Assembly (NCBI RefSeq): GCF_006716695.1
Contig: NZ_VFPN01000001.1
Coordinates: 1,240,001-1,304,000 of the forward strand
Length of the DNA stretch: 64,000 bases
Reading direction: 5' to 3'
DNA from: Klugiella xanthotipulae
GTDB lineage: Bacteria > Actinomycetota > Actinomycetes > Actinomycetales > Microbacteriaceae
The notes under the pieces were generated by a model, which had not been told where the DNA came from, ran no database searches, and worked only from the letters and a program-made list of their open reading frames with translations. The position numbers and the translations under genes were made by a program. Below, piece by piece: positions 11,399 through 13,718 of this stretch (its first letter is position 1; each line of letters opens with the position of its first letter).

Positions 11399-11433
11399 CG
11401 TGCCGTGTGTTGAGATATGTGCTAAGCGTTGGC

Positions 11434-11456
11434 TTATAGGACAAAAAGAGTGGATG
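11434..11456 (+). repeat. Left terminal inverted repeat of the IS element
   Basis: 23 bp beginning TTATAGGACAAAAAGAG, identical to the reverse complement of 12648-12670. Confidence 0.92.
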
Positions 11457-11468
11457 GCCCCGGGTGCG

Positions 11469-12581
11469 TCATCCGCTGCCTGCCCATCCGGCGCGTACCC
11501 AGAGGCCTTCGCTGGCGTCGAGGCCGGTGTCGTAGAGCGGTGGCTGGTCTGTTTGTTCGGCTGGCTCGGTGGTGTTGTCTGGGGCGGGTTCTGGTGTGTG
11601 TTGGATGAGTTCGTGTGCGCGGTCAGAGGGGATCTCTTTCAGTGTGAGGAACCATTCCGCGGCTCGTTTCATGTGTACTTCGCTCATTCCGCGATGGTTC
11701 CGCAATACCGTCCTAATGCCGTTGTTGATCCCGCCCTCGAGTGGCGACGTGGTTCGAGCATTTCCGTGTTCGAGGTATGTGAATAGGACCCCTTTTCGGT
11801 TGAGGCTGTGGAGCAGATTCCAGGCTTTGCGTAACCGGTCGTGAGTGTATCCCCAGTTTCCGTCACGGTATCGGGTGCGTTCTTTCGTGAGGTGTCCGTA
11901 TGCCTGCCACCACACGTTCAGGAGTTTCTGCCACTCGATCGCGTCGTGAATGGTGGTGACTTCTGAAAGCGCGCGACCGATCTGCGCGAGGTGCTTGCCG
12001 GCGCCTGTTTTCGGGTTGAGGGTGAGGTGACGGCGGAGGTTCATGCGGACGTGGAAGATGCAGCGTTGTATCCGGGTGGCGGGCCATTGTTGGCGGAGCG
12101 CAGACGCAATCCCGGTGCCACCGTCACAGACCACGACCGTTGGTGCCGGGAGACGTTCCAGGAGTGCCAGCCACGCCGCAGTTGATTCTCGCGCGCACCA
12201 TTGCCACGCCAGCACTTGCAACGATTGCGTGACCGCGATGAGTAGACACCAGGAACCGATGTAGATGCCGTCGACCAGGATCGTGTGGTGCGCGGTCGTG
12301 ACGGGACCCAGGCGGGGTTCAATATCCCAACACCACCTCGTTGAGCGTCGAAACTGCCGCGCGGCAGACGGGCCACCGAGGTCAGCCTGGGAGTGCTTCC
12401 CGGCAAGCCAGCTCAGGAACTCGTGGAGTTGATGTCGCTGTGTGAGATCGGCACGTTTTCGGGTCGCGGAAGCCCCGCAATTCGGGCAACGCCAACGCTG
12501 CGTGCCAGAACGATGTCTCCCGTTCTTCACGAGCTTGGAATCGCATACCGCACATTTGCCGGAGTTGGGGGTGTTTGGCAC
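11469..12581 (-). CDS. IS1249-family transposase
   Basis: A 370-aa DDE transposase. A zinc ribbon with Cys10, Cys13, Cys32 and Cys35 (CAVC...CPNC) opens the protein, followed by a helix-turn-helix region. The catalytic core (MULE/IS256-like) shows TILVDGIYIG, VVVCDGGTGIASAL and TSPLEGGINNGIRTVLRNHRGM, quoted in parts: TSPLEGGINNG and TVLRNHRGM, which carry the expected Asp, Asp and Glu. CIFHVRMN between the second Asp and the Glu is a family landmark. The frame is intact end to end, so the element could still move. The start codon lies inside the right end region, 67 nt from the right inverted repeat. Confidence 0.93.
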   Translation of the reverse strand: MPNTPNSGKCAVCDSKLVKNGRHRSGTQRWRCPNCGASATRKRADLTQRHQLHEFLSWLAGKHSQADLGGPSAARQFRRSTRWCWDIEPRLGPVTTAHHTILVDGIYIGSWCLLIAVTQSLQVLAWQWCARESTAAWLALLERLPAPTVVVCDGGTGIASALRQQWPATRIQRCIFHVRMNLRRHLTLNPKTGAGKHLAQIGRALSEVTTIHDAIEWQKLLNVWWQAYGHLTKERTRYRDGNWGYTHDRLRKAWNLLHSLNRKGVLFTYLEHGNARTTSPLEGGINNGIRTVLRNHRGMSEVHMKRAAEWFLTLKEIPSDRAHELIQHTPEPAPDNTTEPAEQTDQPPLYDTGLDASEGLWVRAGWAGSG

Positions 12582-12647
12582 TCCTAATCATGCCGGGGTA
12601 TGACCAGCGCCGTTCTGCCTCATGATCACGGGGCTAGATCAAGATCT

Positions 12648-12670
12648 CATCCACTCTTTTTGTCCTATAA
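12648..12670 (-). repeat. Right terminal inverted repeat of the IS element
   Basis: 23 bp ending TTTTTGTCCTATAA, the exact reverse complement of 11434-11456. Confidence 0.92.
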
Positions 12671-12834
12671 CCCTGTGGGCCGCAGTAATGCGTAGATAAG
12701 ACAGCACTCTCGTGGAGCGGGGTGAGTCGAGACGCCCAGGGCTAAGAGTCCGGATACGAGCTTCGGTTGAATACCCGGCTATCCGTGTGATACCGTTCTT
12801 TTGAACAACGTGGACCAGATCCCTCGTTACTAGC

Positions 12835-12872
12835 CAAAGACCCTGCCTCGTGCGGGGTCTTTGTTTTGTTAT
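12835..12872 (+). terminator. Terminator-like hairpin just before the Abi-like gene
   Basis: CAAAGACCC (12835-12843) pairs perfectly with GGGTCTTTG (12855-12863), and TGC/GC pairs can extend it inward; TTTTGTTATT follows. This has the form of a rho-independent terminator for + strand transcription, yet it ends only about 13 nt before the start codon of the next gene. Either it ends a transcript from a gene lost upstream, or it works as an attenuator. Confidence 0.7.
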
Positions 12873-12884
12873 TAAAGGACAACG

Positions 12885-13718
12885 ATGCCGCTCAGACTCC
12901 TGACCCCTATGAACCCGGTTCGCCTGGATACCTATAGGAAGGAGTGCGCTCGAACAGCCGGGGTTTCTGCTGACAGTGTGCCCGAGGAGCAGGTAGCAGC
13001 ACTCTATGTCTGGCAGACCGCGCTGGGTGCCGCCTGGTTTGAGAATCTTGCCTATACGGAAGCGATCCTGCGACACTCAGCAGATACCGCCCTCAGGAGC
13101 TGGAACTTTGCCAGGTCGGGAAGTGAAGATTGGCTCCGTACCCCCAATAGCAGACTGGCTTCTCTGGTGAAAAAATCAGCGAAGGATGCAGAGCGCCAAG
13201 CTGACACCGCCAAGAAGCGACGCGCCCCGGACCATCCCCGCAAGAACTCGCCAGTGGGGCTCGATGACTTGATCGCTCAGCTCTCTTTTGGCAGCATTTC
13301 GTTTCTCATGCCGGCTGATCCTCCAACGAATCGTCAAAGTCTGCGCAGCGGGTACACCCAAAGAGAGAACCTCTGGAAAACAGGACTTCTCGGTGCGTTT
13401 CCGAGACTCACAGAAGAGGCTGCAAAGCGGTGGGTCGTGAACCTCCCCGCAGACGTACCTCCTGACGTTGTCGCCGGATATGCGGTGGGACAAGCATTAG
13501 GTCGGCTTCTTCGTCTGAGGAACAGGATTGGACACCATGAGCAGATTCTTACCGTGAATCACTCGCGGTTGAGAAAAGACATGACCGTATTGCTGCGGGC
13601 AGTGAGTCCAGCCGCTTCGGACGCGCTCAAGCGAATTGACAGGGTGCCCAGGATATTGGCCATGAAACCAATATCCTGGACACCCGTGCACGTAACCAAT
13701 GAGTCTGTTCTCAGCTGA
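12885..13718 (+). CDS. Abi_2/HEPN-like abortive infection protein
   Basis: A 277-aa protein of the Abi_2 type. The C-terminal half has LLRLRNRIGHHEQIL, matching the family box RNxxxHHexl; Arg212-x4-His217 is the HEPN RNase signature. An aromatic-rich motif (YVWQTALGAAWFENLAYTEAILR) occupies the N-terminal half, as in Abi proteins where two helical halves meet. Family members are phage-defence or toxin-like RNases; no antitoxin gene accompanies it. The ATG at 12885 has AAAGGA 7 nt ahead; ATG at 12909 is possible. The gene stands alone between an IS element and kdp, with a terminator-like hairpin before it and an 18-bp inverted repeat in its last codons. The family call is moderately sure; activity is not shown. 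Confidence 0.75.
   Translation: MPLRLLTPMNPVRLDTYRKECARTAGVSADSVPEEQVAALYVWQTALGAAWFENLAYTEAILRHSADTALRSWNFARSGSEDWLRTPNSRLASLVKKSAKDAERQADTAKKRRAPDHPRKNSPVGLDDLIAQLSFGSISFLMPADPPTNRQSLRSGYTQRENLWKTGLLGAFPRLTEEAAKRWVVNLPADVPPDVVAGYAVGQALGRLLRLRNRIGHHEQILTVNHSRLRKDMTVLLRAVSPAASDALKRIDRVPRILAMKPISWTPVHVTNESVLS
13642..13685 (+). repeat. 18-bp near-perfect inverted repeat inside the 3' end of the Abi-like gene
   Basis: Arms 13642-13659 and 13668-13685 match at 17 of 18 positions around the 8-nt loop CCATGAAA. The core CCAGGATATTGG/CCAATATCCTGG encodes part of the C-terminal tail (about residues 253-267). No T run follows. Confidence 0.85.

Follow-up and report, generated by a model that had tools for sequence, protein, structure and literature searches.

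How is the gene of a predicted HEPN ribonuclease held in check at a locus at which no protein antitoxin is seen? This question arises from a 64,000-nt stretch of the Klugiella xanthotipulae genome (contig NZ_VFPN01000001.1, positions 1,240,001 to 1,304,000; referred to here as the window), which carries such a gene at 12885–13718 on the forward strand. A sequence-only reading of the window had called the gene Abi_2/HEPN-like, had described one hairpin before it and another in its last codons, and had proposed that these hairpins either insulate the gene or form an RNA-level control instead of a protein antitoxin. The answer that we arrive at, with a probability of roughly three in four, is that the gene and a neighbouring RNA form an RNA-protein module of the toxin-antitoxin (or abortive-infection) kind, which is composed of a toxin of the AbiF/PD-T4-5 type and a separate RNA antitoxin unlike the abiF motif of Rfam. 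RNA-level control is therefore retained for the 5' hairpin, which is part of a conserved RNA gene linked to the toxin, insulation is improbable, and for the 3' hairpin neither proposal is supported.

The putative RNA antitoxin is predicted by a covariance model and by covariation at 12802–12868 on the forward strand, with a length of about 65–70 nt, and comprises two hairpins on the same strand. Hairpin P1 (12807–12828) has the outer pairs AACG/CGTT and the inner pairs GG/CC, and its loop reads ACCAGAT in the family register, in which relatives have ACAGGAT. Hairpin P2 (12835–12863), the predicted terminator of the RNA, is the 5' hairpin described before. Its stem, CAAAGACCCTGC-5-GCGGGGTCTTTG, has 12 bp, i.e., 11 Watson-Crick pairs and one G-T pair, and is followed by TTTTGTT in a T-rich tail (12864–12870). 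The terminator-like stem with a T-rich tail about 13 nt before the start codon is indeed present, and the end of the stem lies 21 nt from the ATG at 12885. The folding energy of 12802–12868 is -25.4 kcal/mol (z -3.7), and one of 200 shuffles was as low. P2 alone is unremarkable: when all hairpins of the window were scored with one mismatch allowed and compared with four dinucleotide shuffles, stems of its score (11 bp) occurred 11 times in the window and 0–4 times per shuffle. P2 is thus significant because it is conserved, not because its stem is strong.

The nearest homologues of the toxin, in Subtercola (L024), on an Arthrobacter agilis plasmid (L025), on Gordonia pKB1 (L027), on an M. dioxanotrophicus plasmid (L030) and in genome G092, have the two-hairpin cassette directly before the start codon, and the RNA is kept with compensatory changes beside toxins of 38–50% protein identity. 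Most copies carry the P1 loop ACAGGAT or a sequence near it (consensus ACARGRT), with L030 deviating, and the arms of P2 vary between loci yet still pair. The sequence-only reading would have been refuted if homologues lacked both hairpins, which they do not, as the 5' hairpin is found beside them and the 3' repeat is not. When eight copies are aligned with MAFFT, their covariation scores 0.414 compared to 0.211 (standard deviation 0.032) after shuffling (0/500), and it is at most 0.157 when the pairing partners are slid. P1, which is not a terminator, gives 0.286 vs. 0.127 on its own (0/500). When two further copies are added in a model-fitted alignment, a kind that favours structure, 13 of 21 pairs are changed on both sides (0/500).

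The RNA is also linked to the toxin gene, on chromosomes of actinobacteria as well as on their plasmids. A covariance model of the RNA (R1), which includes the window copy in its training set, retrieves this copy from its own genome with 68.7 bits (expectation value E 6e-15), followed by the next best match at 27.5 bits. Over 23 genomes and plasmid records there are eight matches of at least 57 bits, all beside the toxin and all training copies, and the others do not exceed 31.9 bits. Among 398 relatives, four matches with E ≤ 1e-6 were obtained (the window, G092, G974 and G979), each directly before a toxin gene, the toxin gene of G092 being broken. The loci in G974 and G979 were previously unknown; their toxins are 46 and 50% identical, respectively, and start right behind the RNA, and the G979 genome is 9% contaminated. 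Over 396 genomes of the phylum, none but the window copy scores above 32.7 bits. When 16 loci outside the training set were searched with R1 unfiltered, the best match was just upstream of the toxin in 12 of them (E 1.5e-4 to 1.7; ≤ 0.01 in four). No model is needed to see that strong hairpins (score ≥ 28) are common before toxin genes: 16 of 21 have one, compared to 12 of 82 among the remaining genes at these loci (a Mann-Whitney test of the scores gives p 1.9e-6); this control scored stem strength only, a T-tail requirement having missed clear cases such as L024 and L025, and its toxin set includes five R1 training loci. When viral contigs were scanned for the pattern GACAGGATCTNNTCGYTA, eight stretches were obtained, none with a HEPN motif in the sequence around them, and these were put down to chance.

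The position of the RNA relative to the toxin is not constant. On the Rhodococcus and Nocardia plasmids of L026 and L029, the cassette lies on the opposite strand and its P1-P2 order points away from the toxin. To avoid circularity, a second covariance model (R2) was trained on the six co-directional copies only. On the two whole plasmids its top matches are the opposite-strand cassettes of L026 and L029, with 42.1 bits (E 2.1e-9) and 41.4 bits (E 2.0e-8), respectively, compared to 15.9 and 20.8 bits for the next ones. The top match also lies at the toxin, again on the opposite strand, on the Streptomyces plasmid of L040 (27.2 bits) and the Nocardia plasmid of L032 (16.8 bits), and on the plasmid of L035 the match at the toxin is second by 0.1 bit. 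In the toxin tree the window, its co-directional relatives and L026/L029 form one clade with a support of 100/100. The minimum number of orientation changes is two over 18 labelled loci, namely those with an R1 match beside the toxin (some of them weak), the other 14 of 32 loci being left out; on the tree itself the strand labels were set by eye, and a count of five changes made from those labels treats 'unknown' as a state. A mycobacterial clade (L042, L044, L045, L048 and L066) carries a co-directional version of its own, in which P1 is compensated (five sequences, pairing by eye), and homologues on phage contigs have a conserved hairpin region on the opposite strand (four sequences, by eye). 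Since the RNA gene is on the opposite strand in some members, the action of the RNA must not depend on its being the leader of the toxin.

A candidate promoter of the RNA is found at 12767–12796 on the forward strand. It consists of TTGAAT (12767–12772), a spacing of 18 nt and TACCGT (12791–12796), with TGATAC (12788–12793) as an alternative -10 box. This is the best pair in the 60 nt upstream, its -10 box ends 5 nt before the RNA motif, and its p value against mononucleotide shuffles is 0.097. In nine of ten core copies, in both orientations, the best -10 box ends 5–7 nt before the typed RNA start, which varies by a base or two between copies, and in L144 the distance is 10 nt. The promoter scores have p < 0.1 against mononucleotide shuffles in 12 of 16 copies.

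The gene itself has an open reading frame of 277 amino acids and was assigned by profiles, alignment and a structure model. Its HEPN catalytic motif R212-N-R-I-G-H217 (Rx4H; 13518–13535, forward strand) was located by alignment of homologues and has the polar second residue typical of AbiF. R212, N213 and H217 are invariant in all 13 aligned sequences and in 14 of 14 sequences of a wider set with relatives from phage contigs. The PADLOC profile of PD-T4-5 matches all 13 aligned members with a best E of 1.4e-17, including the window protein, for which the match is weak (E 1.6e-4). No Pfam or NCBIfam match up to E 1 was found for the window protein, and Pfam Abi_2 weakly matches seven of the 13 family members (best E 0.0014). 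The Abi_2 part of the original label is therefore an indirect one. An AlphaFold model built from the window protein and 13 relatives has a mean predicted local distance difference test value of 88.2, with low confidence in the last residues. Its best match in the PDB is PbAbiF bound to its non-coding RNA (8vz6), with a Foldseek probability of 1.00 and a Z-score of 11.2 over 212 residues, the next Z being 5.2. Sequence profiles searched against PDB chains did not retrieve AbiF and gave weak matches, including designed ankyrin repeats (best E 0.0071) and Csm6 (best E 0.015). The gene is thus predicted to encode an AbiF-like HEPN ribonuclease of the PADLOC family PD-T4-5.

The two-hairpin RNA, the promoter-like boxes, the terminator, the HEPN ribonuclease, the lack of a visible protein antitoxin and the occurrence on either strand are consistent with an RNA antitoxin that acts in trans and binds its protein, and the RNA is probably the antidote of the toxin. 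A small RNA of about 67 nt would be transcribed from its own promoter, fold into P1 and end at P2 as a strong intrinsic terminator. In the window, where RNA and toxin follow each other head to tail, P2 would end the majority of transcripts, leaving free RNA, and the toxin mRNA would come from occasional read-through past P2. The RNA would bind the toxin and block its ribonuclease site, as has been shown elsewhere for AbiF. If the RNA were lost or depleted, for example by plasmid loss or phage takeover, the ribonuclease would be freed.

Several results weigh against this interpretation. The Foldseek E for AbiF is only 0.014, the template modelling score is 0.49 and the sequence identity is 13%, and helical folds can reach a Z of 11.2 by chance; as judged from the model, the protein takes the AbiF fold, but given this E and identity the match falls short of proof. 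The Rfam abiF family (RF03085) matches none of 21 genomes and records at E ≤ 10, in a search that used stricter filters on plasmids and in which no control genome scored above the family cut-off, and it matches none of the loci at relaxed thresholds. It is therefore through the protein and the layout that the RNA is connected to the known antitoxins of AbiF. P1 of the window is short (six pairs). In the eight-copy alignment the number of pairs changed on both sides is 9 compared to 6.6 (56/500) and that of pair types 22 compared to 21.4 (248/500), and for P1 alone these two measures are not above shuffles either (131/500 and 142/500). R1 gives weak matches (E ≤ 0.01) in 60 of the 396 phylum genomes, the own genome included and neighbouring genes disregarded. 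Its best match is elsewhere in L036 and L046, there is none up to E 10 in L034 and L047, and in L049 it covers the terminator half alone. R2 has its best match at the toxin on four of nine plasmids; among the matches listed for the plasmids of L031, L033 and L042 none is at the toxin, and the plasmid of L048 has no match at all. The promoter p value is over 0.1 in four of the 16 copies, and a strict consensus scan of the window region found no promoter, which leaves the promoter of the window weakly supported.

Among other explanations, the one that survives best, although we regard it as improbable, is that the 5' hairpin serves as a simple intrinsic terminator, keeping read-through out of a dangerous gene and yielding no RNA product of its own. 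P2 does look like a terminator with its T tail, strong hairpins also stand before 12 of the 82 other genes, and the hairpin of L026, when read towards the gene, passes a loose terminator test as well. However, P1 upstream of P2 is conserved in sequence and covaries by itself, the P1-P2 order in L026 and L029 points away from the gene, unlike a shield, and strong hairpins are far from evenly distributed between toxin genes and others (16/21 vs. 12/82). Slightly less probable still is a cis-acting attenuator or riboswitch-like leader that governs read-through and has no antitoxin role. The co-directional P1-P2-ATG layout in the window and its close relatives would suit such a leader, and RCd22 of Clostridioides difficile is described as also acting in cis, by premature termination (PMC12373285). 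From the opposite strand, however, cis action as a leader is impossible, and the RNA is nevertheless kept there along with promoter-like boxes of its own. The opposite-strand copies thus argue against a purely cis-acting insulator as well as against such an attenuator.

The other hairpin has a different history. The inverted repeat of 18 bp in the last codons was correctly described: its arms lie at 13642–13659 and 13668–13685 (whole repeat 13642–13685), with 17 of 18 pairs and a loop of 8 nt. This 17-bp repeat ranks second among all hairpins of the window, for which the shuffle maxima are 13, 11, 12 and 10 bp; the strongest is a perfect 21-bp inverted repeat with a 3-nt loop at 1796–1840. The 3' repeat is absent from 12 aligned homologues, which end within about three residues of P262 (17 other loci were compared, of which L004 and L007 do not count, being read on the wrong strand), and no T-run accompanies it on either strand. 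Its second arm begins at the codon of P262, is the reverse complement of the preceding conserved codons but for one base, and recodes the C-terminus, so that, through the inverted copy (13642–13718), the toxin has a C-terminal tail missing from the aligned homologues. Judged from the sequence, the repeat is probably a template-switch-like mutation by which the old end was replaced and the protein lengthened by about 13 residues. It is unlikely to work as a terminator or control element in partnership with the 5' hairpin, and as a control element it was rejected because it is not conserved. The pairing is far above chance, and two homologues have other hairpins about 50 nt after the stop codon (16 pairs in L029, 14 in L030), but these differ in position and are unrelated in sequence, the repeat lacks a T-run on both sides, and its second arm sits where homologues stop, as if a template switch had copied the last coding stretch backwards. 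Very improbable, finally, is a type I system in which the RNA is antisense to the toxin mRNA, since at co-directional loci, including the window, the same RNA runs in the sense direction of the mRNA, which leaves no antisense pairing between the two.

The RNA-protein module proposed here resembles the AbiF systems with a non-coding RNA, i.e., PbAbiF/AbiFr (8vz6) and AbiFCd/RCd22, in its HEPN Rx4H toxin, the same predicted fold, the upstream small RNA ending in a terminator and the lack of a protein antitoxin. It differs in the identity of 13% to PbAbiF, in having a single P1 hairpin with an ACARGRT-type loop that Rfam abiF does not match, and in the RNA lying on the opposite strand, away from the toxin, in many members. 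RNA neutralisation of AbiF has been published (PMC12373285): RCd22 of C. difficile is described as ending at a terminator before abiF, working both in cis and in trans and binding AbiF directly (PMC12373285). For PbAbiF, a review gives one RNA per monomer and inhibition of the ribonuclease via nucleotides of a single-stranded bulge (PMC12737573). PD-T4-5, whose PADLOC profile all 13 aligned members match, is presented as a plasmid-borne abortive defence that is toxin-antitoxin-like and remotely related to AbiF/D (Vassallo et al., 2022; PMC9519451). The terms 'RNA antitoxin' and 'non-coding' are absent from the main text of that paper. With type III toxin-antitoxin systems (ToxIN, CptIN, TenpIN, AbiQ), the window shares the order of RNA antitoxin, terminator and toxin gene as described in PMC12373285. 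This layout, with the RNA immediately upstream, co-directional and separated by a terminator, is found in the window and the co-directional relatives and not in the opposite-strand members. In contrast to type III systems, the toxin is of the HEPN and not of the ToxN type, the RNA is sometimes on the opposite strand, and tandem RNA repeats were not found, the RNA region having one P1, one P2 and no direct repeat of at least 14 nt. AbiD and AbiF have been assigned to the HEPN superfamily (PMC3710099), and AbiF has been proposed as the ancestor of Cas13, with its RNA antitoxin as forerunner of the guide RNA (PMC12373285; PMC12737573). Similar to Cas13 of type VI CRISPR, the toxin is a predicted HEPN ribonuclease, and the fold list includes a Cas13b chain (Z 4.8); however, this match is within the background of helical folds, and the toxin is a single small HEPN protein with no guide RNA known.

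An AbiF-type toxin with an RNA antitoxin is thus already known as a kind, whereas the RNA family described here is outside Rfam 15 by these searches. The best relaxed Rfam match at the RNA, the Pseudomonas rnk leader, had 23.6 bits (E 0.22), where the gathering score is 55, was driven by the terminator and was rejected. In titles and abstract openings of mainly open-access literature, neither an actinobacterial RNA partner of these genes nor an opposite-strand RNA antitoxin of an AbiF-like gene was found, and the AbiF paper in Cell from 2025 may cover part of this. We give even odds to the broader proposal that the actinobacterial AbiF/PD-T4-5 HEPN branch, probably together with related copies borne by phages, makes up a toxin-antitoxin family. 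On this view its antitoxin would be an RNA of an undescribed family that is transcribed independently and need not share a transcript with the toxin, the strand having switched at least twice by parsimony. If true, this would be a second, sequence-unrelated RNA partner with strand switching, showing how freely toxin-RNA pairs rearrange, and it would explain how PD-T4-5-like defence genes stay harmless, the single-gene PD-T4-5 gaining its missing antitoxin. RNA and toxin are two compact, testable parts. Moreover, the finding points to RNA genes on actinobacterial plasmids that are missing from plasmid gene tables, which carry no RNA genes at all.

Homologues of the toxin are sparse. They were found in 14 of 199 genomes of the family at E ≤ 0.001 and in four of 396 genomes of the order at 1e-12, the own genome included in both counts, and in 46 mostly actinobacterial plasmid records at 1e-5, or 78 with the A. 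agilis protein as query. Phage records contained no close relative at 1e-5, and IMG/VR gave 14 distant homologous loci (22–40% identity over the best segment). Decay of the gene in relatives, which had been named as evidence that would speak against a working system, applies to some of them. On contig 12 of G092 (L017) the toxin is in broken pieces in different frames and the adjoining RNA is intact (81 bits), possibly as a leftover antitoxin. Stop codons lie inside four of 21 matched stretches of one set and three of eight of another (distant matches included), and the other stretches are stop-free.

At the window locus, a candidate ribosome-binding site, AAAGGA, can be read at 12874–12879 (forward strand). 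The toxin gene is flanked on one side by an IS1249-family element (11432–12672; transposase 11469–12581) and on the other side by genes that we take to be kdp-like from the look of their translations. The element lies between a tRNA-Leu gene and the toxin module, its ends (11432–11456 and 12648–12672) are 25-bp terminal inverted repeats with one mismatch, and its right end is about 130 nt upstream of the RNA. An integrated-element boundary at the tRNA-Leu was rejected, as no convincing direct repeat was found there. When the kdp-side flank was compared with 59 genomes (own included), a long match was found only in G003, from 13910 on, and G035 matched over 32 nt.

The settings of the homologues vary. 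In ten of 22 annotated plasmid regions (L025, L026, L029, L032, L034, L035, L042, L045, L047 and L049), the annotation places a recombinase or integrase gene close to the toxin; the flanks covered were 1.5 or 4 kb, some of them ended by record ends. On the mycobacterial plasmids of L042, L044, L045 and L048, the module comes after parA and a small gene, in keeping with a role in plasmid maintenance. The neighbours in L034 are another abortive infection gene, a DNA methyltransferase and a helicase, and L041 has a TIR-domain gene; both settings are defence-island-like. The phage-contig homologues L054, L055, L056 and L063 carry a C-terminal extension of about 130–140 residues past the HEPN part, which ends in AHRRY.
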